The notes beneath the pieces were generated by a model. That model ran no database searches. It saw only the letters and a list, made by a program, of their open reading frames with translations, and was not told the DNA's origin. The position numbers and the translations under genes are program-made. From the NCBI GenBank assembly GCA_028583605.1, contig CM053328.1, forward strand, positions 16,117,107-16,181,106: a stretch of DNA of 64,000 nt. The letters run 5' to 3'. Source of the stretch: Dastarcus helophoroides. Lineage: Eukaryota > Arthropoda > Insecta > Coleoptera > Bothrideridae. Shown one piece after another: positions 10,064 to 62,359 of the stretch (within the stretch, counting starts at the first letter, position 1; every line of letters starts with the position of its first letter).

Positions 10064-10666
10064 ATGAGAAAAAACGTATTTACTAAAATAAATCTAGAGA
10101 ATTTGATTTTTTTTGATACGAAATTAAATATCTCGCGAACTATAAGAAAATGTAGATTTAAGAAAATAATTCAGGATTGCTCTAAGCTTGACCAATCTAA
10201 AGATAACACTCCTACAACCGTTGTGAAATTACCATTTTACCCAAATATCACTAATAAAATTAATAAAGTTTTAAAAGAAAACAACGTAAAAGTAGTTTAT
10301 ACAACCAACAACAGTCTCCGCAATAATTTGGGTAATGCTAAAGATAAATTGGACAAGCTTGAGAATTCCGGAATTTACGAAATAAGCTGTAACAATTGTA
10401 ATGTATCATATGTTGGACAGACCAAGAGATCCATTAAAACCAGATTTAAAGAACATATCGCTCATTTCAGATACAATAGAGAAGAAAAATCAAGTGTCGC
10501 CCTACATATGATAAATACAGGACTCAAAATTAACATTGAAAATTTAAAATTGTTAAGATCGGTCACAAATAGCAGAGAACTTGATGCATACGAAACAATT
10601 TATATCAATCAGAGGCCAGTTACCCTTAAGGAGATAAAGGACCATTGGCGGCCTCCAGTTTATTGA
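10064..10666 (+). CDS. GIY-YIG endonuclease domain protein of a Penelope-like retroelement
   Basis: This intact 200-codon frame corresponds to the C-terminal endonuclease of Penelope-like elements. Residues 55-100 match the linker that precedes the nuclease (LPFYPNITNKINKVLKENNV). The GIY motif is at residues 103-105 in NSGIYEISC, and YVG at 116-118 stands for YIG in VSYVGQTKRS. The catalytic-type Arg is near 127 in TRFKEH, and the conserved Glu near 177 is in ELDAYETIY. A Cys pair (CNNC) lies between GIY and YVG. In the family this domain nicks DNA to prime reverse transcription. The reverse transcriptase that normally precedes it is absent, so this is either a 5'-truncated copy or a surviving domain. 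The ATG chosen is the first in the open frame and may not be a real start. The frame is followed by a hairpin-GAAA motif at 10824-10842. Confidence 0.85.
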   Translation: MRKNVFTKINLENLIFFDTKLNISRTIRKCRFKKIIQDCSKLDQSKDNTPTTVVKLPFYPNITNKINKVLKENNVKVVYTTNNSLRNNLGNAKDKLDKLENSGIYEISCNNCNVSYVGQTKRSIKTRFKEHIAHFRYNREEKSSVALHMINTGLKINIENLKLLRSVTNSRELDAYETIYINQRPVTLKEIKDHWRPPVY

Positions 10667-10815
10667 AGGCTATTTGTGGCAGGTCAAAATTGCATGCACC
10701 AGATGTGTTAAACAATTAGAAATAGGAAAGAAAGCAAAAGACCGCCAGTATCGATTTGAATCTCAATGCAGATGACGTCGATGCATCTTTTGCTAATCTT
10801 TTAAGATTAGTGCGC

Positions 10816-10850
10816 TTGAAAATGCCAGTTCTGCTGGCGAAATACGTATC
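10816..10850 (+). other. Penelope 3' hairpin motif
   Basis: GCCAG (10824-10828) pairs with CTGGC (10834-10838) around a 5-nt loop and is preceded by TTGAAAAT and followed by GAAA. The arrangement recalls a hammerhead core (CUGANGA, stem, GAAA) but the first box is TTGAAAA, so it is degenerate at best. The same layout with a better first box, CTGAAGA, occurs in the palindromic repeats at 4027-4470 and 31854-32397. Confidence 0.5.
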
Positions 10851-10904
10851 GCGTAATTATTTATTTAATTGCCGATGTGGTAAAGGGGTGAAACCTTCTT
10901 TGGA

Positions 10905-11457
10905 CTTATAAAAATTAGCCACAAATGTTTACATCAAAGCAAATCTTAGCTCTTAGTTAACATAAATAAGAAATAATATACAAGGTGTGCCATTTGAATT
11001 TTTTGAGAAAAATGTGATTTTGCGTTTCCTAATCACCCTGTATAACTGCAAATTTTATTTAAATAAAATTTTATCATTTTTTAAAAAAAGGATGTTCTGA
11101 AATAATTCGCACTAAAAATAAAATCATTTGGGCGTTTCCCGAATTTTAAGCGACCTTGCAATTTAGGCTTAATTTTCATGATTTTTCTAATTATCTCAAA
11201 AACTGTTAACCACAGACCCTACTGTTTGATATTATTTTAATCAGCATTTTGTGAGAAACCTAAATATGTAAAAATATATAGGGTGTTTTATTTAAAAAAA
11301 AATTAATTTTACTGCACCACTCTGTATATGTTTACCCTGTATAGTAAAAAATAATTTTAGACTGTGCGCCTTAATGTACCTTTGTACCAAAAATATTTTT
11401 GTTAGCGAAGAATCTGTAGGGAGCTACAGAGTTTTACCCTAATAAAGACTCACCCTG
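10905..11457 (-). repeat. Right terminal inverted repeat of the 5614-11457 element
   Basis: This is the inverted partner of 5614-6165. It is followed by TA at 11458-11459. It contains an internal CACCCTGTATA word (near 11034) that mirrors the internal CAGGGTGG word of the left repeat. Confidence 0.8.
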
Positions 11458-31853: not shown

Positions 31854-32397
31854 CTACTTCTTCCGGGATTGGACTGTGTCAAAGCACTAATAAAAGTGTT
31901 CGACGTTTCGCCCACCATCGTAGGAGGCTTCTTCAGGAACAAAGAAATAAAATACAAGAAAATATACAAAAATGAAAAATGAATGAAAAAAATTTCAAAA
32001 CATCAGAGCACGGTAACTCAGTATGTTTACCATACCAGAGGCGACACTCTTCTAAAGAAGAGTTTTGCCTCAGCTATGGTGGACATATGTATGGTGGATT
32101 TACTCAGTTACCGTGCTCTTCTGTCTAAACTTTCTTACCCTTTGTACCAAATTTTCAATTCAGAAGAGTTTCGCCTCTGGTATGGTGGAATACTGAGTTA
32201 CCGTGCTCTGATGTTTTGAAATTGGCCCCTTTTTTCATTTTTTATTTTTGTATATTTTCTTGTATTTTACTTCTTTGTTCCTGAAGAAGCCCCCTACGAT
32301 GGTGGGCGAAACGTCGAACACTTTCAGTAGTCCTTTGACAAGGTCCAATCCCGGAAGAAGTATATCCAGTACTGACTCTGGCCGTGGAAGCCTTCGT
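31854..32397. mobile_element. Penelope-like palindromic repeat, copy 2
   Basis: A 14 bp duplication TATCTATTTTAATA flanks the insert exactly (31840-31853 and 32398-32411). The inverted arms (31855-31945 and 32275-32365) carry TTCTTCCGGGATTGGAC, the hairpin word with CCACCATCGTAGG, and CTTCTTCAGGAACAAAG. The middle shows inverted and direct copies of the TATGGTGGA unit found in copy 1. The right end extends 33 bp beyond the palindrome to GGAAGCCTTCG; the left end stops at CTTCTTCCGGG. Variable-length target duplications fit Penelope-type retrotransposition. No protein is encoded. Confidence 0.75.
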
Positions 32398-55945: not shown

Positions 55946-58180
55946 CAGGGTGTTACAAAAGTCCGGGCCGCTACTTCAGGAGCATATTCTACACATTAAA
56001 ATATGAAAAATGTTGAAATACATTTTTTTCTTTAAATTGCCTCCTAACGGAGATATGACCATTTAAAGATGGCGCCCCTAAAGTGGTTTTTTTACTACAA
56101 AAAGTTAACGGTTAGTAGCAAAGTCATGAAATTGGGCAAGCAGTTAAAGAATTGGATTAGGCATATTCTCATGTAACATATTTTTTAAATAAGCAGTAGC
56201 GTGGTGTGTAGGGGGTTGCCCGCGATTATTTTTTGCCGTAACTTTTTTGTATTGCAATATTTCAACACAAAAGTGCTATAATCGTAAAAAGCAACATTTT
56301 TTATACAAAAAAGGTACTCTTTCTCAAAGTCGCTAAAAGTAACCGTTTCCGAGAAAAAAGCATTTAAACAAAATTGTTGCATTTATTAGAATTCGTTTTG
56401 CAAATTTCTAATTTATCCACTACTAACTGCATTGATATAAAAATAGTACAAAATTAAGAAAAAAAAATCAAAGCAAGTGTTCGAAATTACTGCCCCCTGC
56501 AGCAATACATTGCTCGGCTCGTCTTCTAAGGGAACTCCTTACTCTTTCGCAAATGCCTGGTGTATTGTGAATCTGGTTGAACCCATTTTCAATTCGTTCA
56601 CGAAGATCATTGATATTGTCAACTGGTGTAAAGTAGATGATCTGCTTTAGATGTCCCCATAAGTAGAAATCGAGTGGGTTGAGGTCAGGAGACCTAGCTG
56701 GCCATGGTATCGGACCTCCTCGACCTATTCATCGTTGATGATAGTTTTTATTCAAAAATTCCCTAGCAACTGCACTAAAATGGGCAGGTGCCCCATCGTG
56801 CATTATCCACATTCGCTGTCTTGTTATGAGTGGAACATTTTCAAGTAACACGGGTAACTCTGTTTGCAAAAAATGTCTATATGATGCTCCTGTTAACCTA
56901 TGAGGTAAAAAAAAACGGTCCAATTATAGAGTCCCCTATTATTCCTCCCCAAATGTTAAGTGAAAAATGTTGCTGATGTCTCGACTGAATAACTGCATTG
57001 GGATTTTCAACTTGCCACTGATGCATGTTGTGAAAGTTAAGTATCCCGTTTCTGGTAAAACCCGCTTCGTCCGTAAATAATATGAGCGATGGAAAGTTCT
57101 CATTTTCAGCGATCTTATGCAATAGCCAGTTGCAAAATTCTATTCTTGGAGGATAATCAGCAGCAAGTAACCCTTGCACTCTTTGAAAATGATAGGGGTA
57201 AAATTGGTAAAATTTCAAAATTCGCCAGATAGTTACGTGAGTTACTCCTTCGGCTAAAGCAAGTTGTCTAGTGCTGACACATGGATCTTCTTCAACTCGC
57301 TGAAGCACACGCTCCTCTAAATTAGCATCTTCTGCGTTTGGCCTTCCAACACGTTCGCCTTTGAAAACAAAATTTCCTGTTTCACATAAACGAGCATGAA
57401 TTTTCTGGAACAATTTTTCTCCTGGTAGGTGTCTATTAGGAAAACGTTCAGCATAAAGCCGTCTTGCTTCAGCACGATTACAATTTGCAAGCCCGTACAT
57501 TAAATGCATATCGGCCATTTCTTGATTTGAATAGTCCATTTTATCAAAATAATGAAAAGTTAAAAAACTACTACACTTACTATTGACAACAAAAACTGCT
57601 AAAGTTTACAGCTTACGACCAAATTTTATCAGTGACACAACGTCAATCTCTGGCAGATATTGTCAAGTACAATTGTTTTCTTTACGATCAGTTTGCATGA
57701 CCAACTTATTTTTTCTTATACAAATTAGTTAGAATTTCGAAGACGGGATAGGATTATTTAAACGCCTTTTTCTCGGAAACGGTTACTTTTAGCGACTTTG
57801 AGAAAGAGTACCTTTTTTGTATAAAAAATGTTGCTTTTTACGATTATGGCACTTTTGTGTCGAAATATTGCAATACAAAAAAGTTACGGCAAAAAATAAT
57901 CGCGGGCAACCCCCTACACACCACGCTACTACTTATTTAAAAAATATGTTACATGAGAATATGCCTAATCCAATTCTTTAACTGCTTGCCCAATTTCATG
58001 ACTTTGCTACTAACCGTTAACTTTTTGTAGTAAAAAAAACCACTTTAGGGGCGCCATCTTTAAATGGTCATATCTCCGTTAGGAGGCAATTTAAAGAAAA
58101 AAATGTATTTCAACATTTTTCATATTTTATTGTGTAGAATATGCTCCTGAAGTAGCGGCCCGGACTTTTGTAACACCCTG
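55946..58180 (-). mobile_element. DD41D-type element, copy A (complete), with 424 bp terminal inverted repeats
   Basis: TA (55944-55945 and 58181-58182) flanks CAGGGTGTTACAAAAGTCCG and its inverse. The inverted repeats, 55946-56369 and 57757-58180, are 424 bp each and nearly identical, so the copy is young. The transposase gene fills the middle on the minus strand. It sits in the loop of the large inverted-repeat element. Confidence 0.94.
56468..57539 (-). pseudogene. DD41D-type transposase, copy A: one frameshift and one stop
   Basis: The frame starts at 57539 (MDYSNQEMADMHLMYGLANC). The DUF4817-like HTH region (ERFPNRHLPGEKLFQKIH) is followed by a second HTH (STRQLALAEGVTHVTIWRIL). The first catalytic Asp is in LFTDEAGFTRNG (57069-57071). 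After GPFF a run of nine T on this strand (56907-56915 on the plus strand) shifts the frame by one. The next frame gives LPHRLTGASYRHFLQ and the second Asp in MHDGAPAHFSAV. A TGA at 56729 stands where the element at 41611-44245 has the Trp of WIGRGGP. Beyond it, RSPDLNPLDFYLWG supplies the third Asp, 41 residues after the second. The protein would end EHLL at 56468. Everything else is intact. Confidence 0.9.
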
Positions 58181-59808: not shown

Positions 59809-61740
59809 CTTTTTTGTATTGCAATATTTCGACACAAAAGTGCCATAATCGTAAAAAGCAACATTTTTTATACAAAAAAGGTACTCCTTCTCAAAGTCGC
59901 TAAAAGTGACCGTTTCCGAGAAAAAAGCGTTTAAACAAAATTGTTGCATTTATTAGAATTCGTTTTGCAAATTTCTAATTTATCCACTACTAACTGCATT
60001 GATATAAAAATAGTACAAAATTAAGAAAAAAAAATCAAAGCAAGTGTTCGAAATTACTGCCTCCTGCAGCAATACAGCTCGGCTCGTCTTCTAAGGGAAC
60101 TCCTTACTCTTTCGCAAATGCCTGGTGTATTGTGAATCTGGTTGAACCCATTTTCAATTCGTTCACGAAGATCATTGATATTGTCAACTGGTGTGGAGTA
60201 GATGATCTGCTTTAGATGTCCCCATAAGTAGAAATCGAGTGGGTTGAGGTCAGGAGACCTAGCTGGCCATGGTATCGGACCTCCTCGACCTATTCATCGT
60301 TGATGATAGTTTTTATTCAAAAATTCCCTAGCAACTGCACTAAAATGGGCAGGTGCCCCATCGTGCATTATCCACATTCGCTGTCTTGTTATGAGTGGAA
60401 CATTTTCAAGTAACACGGGTAACTCTGTTTGCAAAAAATGTCTATATGATGCTCCTGTTAACCTATGAGGTAAAAAAAAACGGTCCAATTATAGAGTCCC
60501 CTATTATTCCTCCCCAAATGTTAAGTGAAAAATGTTGCTGATGTCTCGACTGAATAACTGCATTGGGATTTTCAACTTGCCACTGATGCATGTTGTGAAA
60601 GTTAAGTATCCCGTTTCTGGTAAAACCCGCTTCGTTCGTAAATAATATGAGCGATGGAAAGTTCTCATTTTCAGCGATCTTATGCAATAGCCAGTTGCAA
60701 AATTCTATTCTTGGAGGATAATCAGCAGCAAGTAACCCTTGCACTCTTTGAAAATGATAGGGGTAAAATTGGTAAAATTTCAAAATTCGCCAGATAGTTA
60801 CGTGATTTACTCCTTCGGCTAAAGCAAGTTGTCTAGTGCTGACACATGGATCTTCTTCAACTCGCTGAAGCACACGCTCCTCTAAATTAGCAACTTCTGC
60901 GTTTGGCCTTCCAACACGTTCGCCTTTAAAAACAAAATTTCCTGTTTCACATAAACGAGCATGAATTTTCTGGAACAATTTTTCTCCTGGTAGGTGTCTA
61001 TTAGGAAAACGTTCAGCATAAAGCCGTCTTGCTTCAGCACCATTACAATTTGCAAGCCTGTACATTAAATGCATATCGGCCTTTTCTTGATTTGAATAGT
61101 CCATTTTATCAAAATAATGAAAAGTTAAAATACTACTACACTTACTATTGACAACAAAAACTGCTAAAGTTTACAGCTTACGACCAAATTTTATCAGTGA
61201 CACAATCTCTGACAGATATTGTCAAGTACAATTGTTTTCTTTACGATCAGTTTGCATGACCAACTTATTTTTTCTTATACAAATTAGTTAGAATTTCGAA
61301 GACGGGATAGGATTATTTAAACGCCTTTTTCTCGGAAACGGTTACTTTTAGCGACTTTGAGAAAGAGTACCTTTTTTGTATAAAAAATGTTGCTTTTTTA
61401 CGATTATGGCACTTTTGTGTCGAAATATTGCAATACAAAAAAGTTACGGCAAAAAATAATCGCGGGCAACCCCCTACACACCACGCTACTGCTTATTTAA
61501 AAAATATGTTACATGAGAATATGCCTAATCCAATTCTTTAACTGCTTGCCCAATTTCATGACTTTGCTACTAACCGTTAACTTTTTGTAGTAAAAAAACC
61601 ACTTTAGGGGCGCCATCTTTAAATGGTCATATCTCCGTTAGGAGGCAATTTAAAGAAAAAAAATGTATTTCAACATTTTTCATATTTTAATGTGTAGAAT
61701 ATGCTCCTGAAGAAGCGGCCCGGACTTTTGTAACACCCTG
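59809..61740 (-). mobile_element. DD41D-type element, copy B, missing 296 bp of its left end
   Basis: Nearly identical to copy A from 56242 onward. The right inverted repeat (about 61317-61740) is complete and followed by TA. The left 296 bp (55946-56241 in copy A) are absent. The sequence instead passes into jockey sequence within the shared run CTTTTTT. Only the inner part of the left inverted repeat remains. Confidence 0.92.
60035..61104 (-). pseudogene. DD41D-type transposase, copy B: catalytic Asp lost
   Basis: The same gene as at 56468-57539, with six residue differences in the 213-residue first frame (Met8Lys and Gly16Arg among them). It shares the run of nine T that shifts the frame (60472-60480) and the TGA in place of Trp at 60294. 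In addition the first catalytic Asp is Asn here, LFTNEAGFTRNG (60634-60636). This copy could not catalyse transposition even if the frame were open. Confidence 0.9.
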
Positions 61741-61928
61741 TATATAGTTTTTCTAAAATTTTGACCTTTATTTCGAAATTTTTATTTACATAGCTTCTAC
61801 TACCAACATTTCGAATTTTTTTCGAGATTAGCAAAATAGGTTACTTTTTAAAATTTCAACTTTCTTAAATTTTCAGCTTATTTTTAAAAATGTTGACCTT
61901 TTTTTAAATGTTCCTTTTTATTCTATAA
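61741..61928. repeat. Short T-rich degenerate block
   Basis: The same texture as the larger A/T blocks, GAAATTTTT and TTTTTAAAA words, about 190 bp. Confidence 0.45.
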
Positions 61929-61944
61929 TACACAGACCAATAGG

Positions 61945-62048
61945 TTTGAACATTTATTAGATTCGAAGTTTGGAAACCAAATACCGGTTTCGATCTTGTT
62001 AGATCTCATCAGTTTGGTATATCCAACTCGAATGCTAACAAATGTTCC
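61945..62048 (-). repeat. Inverted repeat that forms an extended ribozyme stem I
   Basis: GAACATTTATTAG and ATTCGAAGTTTGG on the left mirror CCAACTCGAATGCTAAC and AAATGTTCC on the right. The centre is the hammerhead motif at 61976-62018. In a type I hammerhead the strands flanking the core pair as an open stem I, which is what is seen here. Confidence 0.8.
61976..62018 (-). ncRNA. Hammerhead ribozyme motif, type I
   Basis: On the minus strand the parts occur in order. ACCAAA is the stem I 5' strand. CTGATGA follows (62006-62012). Stem II is GATCT-AACA-AGATC, a perfect 5 bp stem (61992-62005). Next is GAAA (61988-61991), then CCGG, then U-A as the cleavage dinucleotide, then TTTGGT as the stem I 3' strand (61976-61981), pairing perfectly with ACCAAA. 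Every invariant core nucleotide of the hammerhead is present. Stem III would be A-CCGG-U, which has no loop but is self-complementary, so the expected active form is a dimer, as described for other type I hammerheads with very short stem III in animal repeats and Penelope-like elements. Cleavage is predicted after the A at 61982. Activity is inferred. Confidence 0.82.
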
Positions 62049-62359
62049 AACAAGTAAGTACTAAAATATTCACAGGCGTCAAGCGAGTGACTCTTAGTAC
62101 TACCACCTATTGGTTCATACAGAAACTATGGCCATCGCCAACAATGTCGTACGCAAGAAGAATGCAACCTCGACTACAAATTCATGCAGCCCTCCAGGCG
62201 TGTATAGTGAATCATAGGTAGCTGAACTACCAACAGTTGAAACACTGCCACCTAGCGAAGCGGTTGCTCTCTAGGAGAGTTCCCAGAAGACAGGGATTCT
62301 GTAATGCACAGACCAATAGGGAAAGTTCCTATTAAGAGACTGGTTAGTATCCTCAATTC

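Follow-up and report, generated by a model that had tools for sequence, protein, structure and literature searches.

An ORF-less, retrozyme-like element of Dastarcus helophoroides with a loopless, predicted dimer-acting hammerhead and Penelope-type insertion anatomy

Which element carries a hammerhead motif with a loopless, palindromic stem III in a beetle genome, and how would such an element move? This question is raised by a locus in a 64,000-nt stretch of Dastarcus helophoroides contig CM053328.1 (GCA_028583605.1, positions 16,117,107 to 16,181,106), hereafter called the window. A preliminary description, made from the letters alone, proposed a dimeric hammerhead ribozyme at this locus; it contained neither the mobile element around the motif, nor its copies, nor the connection with Penelope. 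We favor, with a probability of about 0.7, the reading that the motif belongs to a non-autonomous, retrozyme-like, ORF-less element of ~377 nt with a loopless, likely dimer-acting hammerhead, which is probably mobilised by a Penelope-like element (PLE).

The motif lies on the minus strand of the window, from 62018 to 61976, as read directly from the sequence. In RNA form it is ACCAAA-CUGAUGA-GAUCU-AACA-AGAUC-GAA-ACCGGU-A-UUUGGU; its parts are listed in Table 1. The core boxes, the 5-bp stem II, the GAAA and the UA that had been proposed earlier are all present on this strand, and the two stem I strands are paired over 6 bp. The motif thus contains CUGANGA...GAAA...UH together with three helices, of which stem III exists only as an intermolecular helix. 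Cleavage is predicted 3' of A17, i.e. between 61982 and 61981. The surrounding 104-nt inverted repeat extends stem I, as already described; its fold has an energy of -39.5 kcal/mol (z -7.3), which was equalled by none of 200 shuffles.

Table 1. Positions in the window of the hammerhead, its carrier element and related features
Feature	Position	Strand	Basis or remark
Whole hammerhead motif	61976..62018	-	Sequence; Rfam HH9; stem I and stem II covariation with second family
Stem I strand ACCAAA	62018-62013	-	Sequence reading
Core CTGATGA	62012-62006	-	Sequence reading
Stem II GATCT/AACA/AGATC, 5 bp	62005-61992	-	Sequence reading
GAA box	61991-61989	-	Sequence reading
Stem III ACCGGT (ACCGGU), self-complementary, zero loop	61983..61988	-	Sequence reading; second family with ACUAGU
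A17	61982	-	Sequence reading
Stem I strand TTTGGT	61981-61976	-	Sequence reading
Imperfect inverted repeat, 104 nt, stem I extension	61945..62048	-	Fold; HH9 alignment
ORF-less element copy, one ~377-nt unit + 25 nt, single arm, 401 bp	61920..62320	-	Border stops of matches
25-nt repeat, copy 1; class B 3' end at 61920	61920..61944	.	End tabulation
25-nt repeat, copy 2, 92% identical to copy 1; next unit's start in tandem copies	62296..62320	.	
Equivalent of class A 3' end (end of the longer arm elsewhere); no end in window copy	62148..62155	-	
PLE fragment, 99% to L076	10143..10908	+	Overlapped by GIY-YIG ORF 10064-10666
PLE hammerhead-like motif GUGCGC-UUGAAAA-U-GCCAG-UUCUG-CUGGC-GAAA-UACGUA-U-C-GCGUA	10810..10855	+	Deviates at C3 (U) and G8 (A)
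Hammerhead-like motifs of the 31860-32360 repeat	31936-31905; 32281-32312	minus; plus	One extra base before stem II

The covariance-model search suggested in the preliminary description did recover the motif: Rfam Hammerhead_HH9 (RF02275) matched 61959-62030 on the minus strand with 37.2 bits and an E value of 4.1e-8 in 301 bases searched, although this is below the gathering score of 52 bits, at which Rfam gives zero matches in the whole window. The HH9 model and the motif have the same core and stem II, and, by the HH9 alignment, an internal loop at the same place in stem I, 6 bp from the core; different from the motif, the model has a stem III loop. The bare core pattern CTGATGAN{8,30}GAAAC occurred at least once in 17 of 100 shuffles, and it is weak evidence on its own, because 0.21 occurrences are expected per window. 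The earlier statement that chance is very unlikely therefore holds for the full motif, on the strength of HH9 and of the genome counts against reversed controls, but not for the bare core.

Having zero loop, stem III cannot close within one molecule and can only pair with a second copy. In the predicted double hammerhead, stems I and III would join two copies, each of which forms its own stem II. Explicit energy evaluation gave -81.1 kcal/mol for this dimer versus -79.0 kcal/mol for two monomers (2 x -39.5), a small margin in energies that take no account of tertiary contacts or of the association of strands. The monomer is predicted to fold best with C3-U4-G5 paired to the CGG of stem III; the monomer forced into the hammerhead fold, with stem III open, has an energy of -35.9 kcal/mol. 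The best reading of the motif is a hammerhead ribozyme with a self-complementary stem III, predicted to act as a dimer; this reading is based on the HH9 match, on a second family with a different helix and palindrome, and on the dimer energy. The dimer already deduced from the loopless palindrome is supported by the same evidence, and its intermolecular stem III stands; however, stem I too would form between the copies in a double hammerhead. With its single hammerhead, the window copy is on its own unable to form a dimer in cis.

The second family is found in L010 (4568-4598), L050, L069 and L075, which share flanks; L055 was joined to them by stem II alone. In a blastn search with 300 bases around the L010 motif, flank matches among the loci examined were found only in L050, L069 and L075. 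HH9 matches the L010 motif with 22.7 bits (E 0.0013, 201 bases). Stem II of this family is GGCC/GGCC or a relative, different from that of the 377-nt family but paired, and the stem III palindrome of the L010 motif is ACUAGU. The pattern CTGANGANNCCN{3,8}GGNNGAAACNNGT, in which the two middle letters of stem III are free, gave 1,457 genome matches and 0 in the reversed control. Among the 100 matches listed of these 1,457, which belong mostly to one family by descent, a hand count found 97 strict palindromes (95 ACTAGT and 2 ACCGGT); the remaining three are ACTTGT, ACTGGT and ACGAGT, one each. Many same-sense neighbours of the second family are 465-470 bp apart, which points to a second tandem unit, with ~466-bp spacing.

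To compare the helices, 16 sequences of both families were aligned. Paired cells amount to 83.8%, and 14 cells are changed on both sides; none of 500 shuffles was as high in either measure, and the score drops when the partners are slid. Compensatory changes, proposed earlier as a check, are borne out by the 14 cells; two other measures, however, are not unusual: 176 of 500 shuffles reach the number of pairs that change on both sides, and 473 of 500 reach that of further pair types, in which the alignment lies below most shuffles. The search that supplied 14 of the 16 sequences required a fixed core and CCGG, and the L010 sequence came from a core scan. Because the core and CCGG are fixed by the search pattern, the alignment tests stems I and II only; since the second family was found by core patterns, retention of the core between the families is partly built in.

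The genome search covered the 539-Mb assembly of 50 contigs. The pattern CTGATGAN{10,20}GAAACCGGTA with U7 gave 88 exact matches and its reversed control 1; with N7 free, the same pattern gave 3,299 matches and its reversed control 2. The latter figure counts hammerheads, not insertions, and includes a few of the second family; as the matches are mostly copies of one repeat, it is a measure of abundance and not of independent origins. Almost all of the copies that were examined have the hammerhead within a short mobile repeat that lacks genes. Variation within the family was analyzed in 97 blast matches to a 131-nt region, taken from the window and 36 loci. Private changes affect 29 of 799 core positions (3.6%) and 195 of 7439 flank positions (2.6%). 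The core is no better conserved than the flanks, so no selection on the core is visible within the family. In the preliminary description, core nucleotides varying as freely as the flanks were to count against the ribozyme, and this is what we found; we do not take it as a refutation, because dead retrotransposon copies decay everywhere alike, and core conservation is a weak test for decaying copies, not a strictly defining feature.

The commonest shared variants inside the 43-nt motif are at N7 (C67/T20/A1 in 88 letters) and H17 (A80/C10/G2/T1). N7 and H17 are permissive positions in hammerheads, and shared variants at these two positions appear to fit catalysis. The core of the window copy had been called exact; all boxes are indeed there, but its U7 is the minority form. 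The next shared variant is at 61984 in stem III (G83/A6/T2/C2), where a change breaks the palindrome. Among the 81 blast matches that span the whole 43 nt, the core is intact in 68 and broken in 13. ACCGGT is kept in 66 and absent in 15 of them, five of the 15 being ACCGAT; if G.U counts, stem III is self-pairing in 70.

The borders of the window copy, at 61920 and 62320, are the positions where matches to other loci stop. Its RNA sense is minus, and its longest stop-free stretch is 60 codons. Tandem units succeed one another every 375-378 bp in L009, L010, L015 and L020, with nothing between the units, and arrays reach up to 3.65 units (L034, within the stretch examined). In many copies two arms are joined head to head, and the RNA 3' end of each arm faces outward. 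Two classes of 3' ends, set after the first loci were seen, were used for tabulation: class A at ~62150 equivalent (62137-62160 accepted) and class B at 61920, equivalent to 62296 (62289-62306 accepted). Our survey of the window and 60 loci, with duplicates dropped, contained 33 two-armed inserts bounded within their locus. Both ends could be classed in 25 of them, of which 24 are A/B, one is B/B and none is A/A; the other eight have an end outside A and B, and one of these, L020, is A/B in the wider table. Seven inserts came from later-added loci, five being A/B (L048, L053, L054, L057 and L063) and two having an unclassed end (L046 and L074). The A arm is ~147 nt longer than the B arm.

Words of 9 bp or longer that are common to both borders, such as TACAATTTCTGAT in L010, are present in 16 of the 33 two-armed inserts versus 2 of 300 mismatched pairings, for which slightly wider windows were used. 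In the other 17 inserts a 9-bp word is lacking, and in some of the 16 the word is off the exact borders (L038 and L063). Most two-armed inserts with border words can be read as single insertions with target duplications. At the window copy only the 6-bp GTTCCT was found, which is common by chance and is not a convincing duplication. No poly(A) was seen by eye at insert ends in the 13 loci shown. The insert 3' ends are located downstream of the predicted cut, by 62 nt for B and about 208 nt for A, and the 5' ends are scattered and do not accumulate at the cut site, as judged from the end tables without a formal test; the insert ends do not mark the cut. As the 3' ends lie past the cut and the 5' ends scatter, the inserted templates would be uncut or circular, which speaks against a part for cleavage in insertion. 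Like PLEs, the inserts have tandem or inverted pseudo-LTR (pLTR)-like arms, short target-site duplications (TSDs) and a tail on one arm; like metazoan retrozymes, they consist of an ORF-less tandem unit within 170-400 nt that contains a type I hammerhead. In L009 (2375-7141), four insert copies occur at a spacing of 1,380 to 1,386 bp, i.e. the hammerhead element is part of a local tandem duplication.

PLEs are abundant in this genome: the GIY-YIG end found in the window gave at least 150 scored matches among 4,191 genome candidates, and by our own reading at least 21 minus-then-plus pairs lie within 3 kb among the 150 matches listed. One locus, L076, has an 800-codon stop-free frame that reaches the end of the stretch and contains RVT_1 and GIY-YIG domains. 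No significant similarity was found between the 377-nt unit and the L076 PLE, and an ORF for RT plus GIY-YIG is absent from the unit, as judged from the window copy, where no stop-free stretch exceeds 60 codons. In a tblastn search with one PLE protein, PLE pieces near units were found only in the window, L013 (= L024) and L016. With this one PLE family as query no attached PLE ORF was found, whereas PLE-type insertion anatomy is present. In L013 (5218-5325), a GIY-YIG fragment, 47% identical to PLE over 36 residues, lies on the strand opposite to a unit arm, 3 bp away from it; the insert that it abuts is the single B/B case.

The PLE has a hammerhead-like motif of its own, located upstream of the PLE ORF, with the palindromic and loopless stem III AUACGUAU. 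In all four copies of the motif that were examined (window, L076 and two in L016), C3 and G8 are replaced by U3 and A8, a Watson-Crick-compatible swap of the C3-G8 pair. The inner part of the motif has 1,199 exact genome matches and 0 in the reversed control; Rfam identified no hammerhead in region 2300-2800 of L076. One possibility is that the ribozyme is dead while its element has been successful; the other is a variant with a swapped core. The PLE motif would be cut at 10850, and the PLE fragment of the window ends 58 nt farther on, at 10908; the B end of the unit is 62 nt past its cut; the end-to-cut geometry is similar, the sequence is different.

Other hammerhead-like motifs were also observed. 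The window contains a head-to-head inverted repeat at 31860-32360 with one motif per arm, CTGAAGA-A-GCCC...GGGC-GAAACGTC-GAAC, and Rfam gave no match in this repeat (31.7-32.5 kb). The motif CTCT-CTGAAGA-T-GATAGC..GCTGTC-GAAA-CGCG-TT-AGAG, which likewise has an extra base before stem II, is present in L009, L011, L015, L016, L017, L019, L033 and L070 (13 rows, 10 distinct places); the palindrome is ACGCGT at seven of the 10 places, ACGTGT at two and ACGAGT at one. On the ACGCGU motifs in L009, Rfam gave only weak microRNA-family matches and no hammerhead. Separately, two near-identical 213-codon ORFs are located on the minus strand of the window (56898-57539 and 60463-61104), in repeats that are ~98% identical; the former encodes a DUF4817 helix-turn-helix, and we take the pair to resemble a DNA transposon.

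The alternative that survives best is that the hammerhead is a passenger, retained because its structure also serves for protein binding or for the start of RT, and does not cleave during the life cycle. This would agree with insert ends that do not mark the cut site, with a core that changes as often as the flanks within the family, and with U3 and A8 in all four PLE copies examined. According to a study of a lizard PLE (PMC11167929), hammerhead mutants insert in vitro, where insertion is independent of the hammerhead, RNA-seq shows no cut ends, and the hammerhead cleaved only with protein present. However, two families with unrelated flanks have the catalytic boxes together with helices that are different but paired, both families having been found through these boxes, and the variants that copies share at N7 and H17 are consistent with catalysis. 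We consider the passenger explanation unlikely, while giving it real weight.

According to a second alternative, the element is the pseudo-LTR of a full PLE that has lost its coding part in the copies examined, and is not an independent non-autonomous family. The insertion anatomy is that of a PLE, the diverged GIY-YIG fragment of L013 abuts a unit arm, and minimal type I hammerheads without helix III are described, in PMC7761336, both in PLE pLTRs and as dispersed copies that may act as dimers, their in vivo role being called 'still a mystery'. On the other hand, the units form direct repeats with a period of 375-378 bp and without intervening sequence, the PLE pieces in L013 and L016 are on the opposite strand to the nearby units, and the one PLE family examined, in a single-family query, has a different spacer. 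These features make a pseudo-LTR improbable. In comparison with published PLEs, for which PMC3846280 gives inverted pLTRs, one of which carries a 31-bp tail, together with a 9-bp TSD, and PMC11167929 describes the lizard tail as the stretch between two internal reverse-transcription starts, the 377-nt element resembles endonuclease-bearing Penelope in its inverted arms, ~9-bp TSD, one longer arm and partial tandems, and resembles the lizard element in having a hammerhead. Different from Penelope, the unit has no RT/EN ORF, and its tail equivalent is ~147 nt instead of 30 to 40.

The carrier looks like an animal retrozyme that is inserted the Penelope way. Metazoan non-LTR retrozymes, as portrayed in PMC7229834, are ORF-less tandem units of 170-400 nt with a type I hammerhead, co-existing PLEs and, when present, TSDs; here too, an ORF-less tandem unit within this range has a type I hammerhead, and PLE is found in the same genome. 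In that paper, the invertebrate retrozymes have a short capped helix III, whereas stem III is loopless here, and the words 'inverted' and 'target site' are absent from its text, whereas inverted arms and border duplications are found here. PLEs are only proposed there as the engine of animal retrozymes; this proposal also appears in PMC11722881. In the open-licence literature, we found the proposal that PLEs move retrozymes but not PLE-type anatomy for an ORF-less hammerhead unit. If the retrozyme were moved by a LINE or by some enzyme other than that of a PLE, its size, tandem layout and type I hammerhead would be the same, and LINEs are named beside PLEs as candidates in PMC7229834. The head-to-head arms, the two fixed and different 3' ends and the ~10-bp duplications are more in keeping with PLEs than with simple LINE insertion, and no poly(A) was seen by eye at the ends in the 13 loci shown; movement by a LINE is highly improbable. 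Chance resemblance inside a palindrome, for which only the 0.21 expected occurrences of the bare core speak, is negligible in view of the HH9 match, the helix covariation and a second family with a new palindrome.

Small PLE-linked hammerheads with a reduced stem III were reportedly described by Lunse, Weinberg and Breaker in 2017 and by Cervera and de la Pena in 2014, with cleavage as dimers. The hammerhead of the 377-nt unit has the same type I core and no stem III loop, and its dimer cleavage is predicted where theirs was reported; different from them, it resides in an ORF-less tandem unit of ~377 nt, and its long self-complementary stem I contains an internal loop. Because loopless PLE-linked hammerheads are already published, the ribozyme would be a new member and not a new type. 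In newt-type hammerheads, helix III has a small loop, which is absent from stem III of the 377-nt unit. The newt satellite hammerhead, as presented in PMC6155905, has a weak helix III, occurs in tandem repeats and acts as a dimer; weak stem III and tandem repeats are seen here as well, and the dimer is predicted. The axolotl hammerhead, according to PMC7229834, also has a small loop in helix III.

Under the favored reading of a non-autonomous, retrozyme-like element, a transcript of tandem units, or two transcripts, would form a double hammerhead by pairing at the ACCGGU palindrome and along the long, self-complementary stem I. Each ribozyme would cut 3' of A17, and unit-length RNA would be released, which may be circularised. 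A PLE protein, acting in trans, would nick both target strands. Reverse transcription would start at two internal sites, B at 61920 and A at 62150 equivalent, and two 5'-truncated arms would meet head to head between the target duplications.

A further and more speculative suggestion, which we regard as doubtful, is that stem III may act as a kin tag. The families have different self-complementary words, namely ACCGGU in the 377-nt family, ACUAGU in the ~466-nt family and AUACGUAU in the autonomous PLE. Because each family's palindrome word differs, only RNAs of the same family might build an active double hammerhead. The ORF-less families might then be a direct link between retrozymes and Penelope, their RNAs being copied by the PLE enzyme in trans.

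With an ORF-less hammerhead element, PLE-type insertion ends, many recent copies and abundant PLE in one genome, Dastarcus helophoroides would provide a natural test case for two questions: whether the unit is inserted by the PLE protein in trans, and whether this requires cleavage or circularisation.
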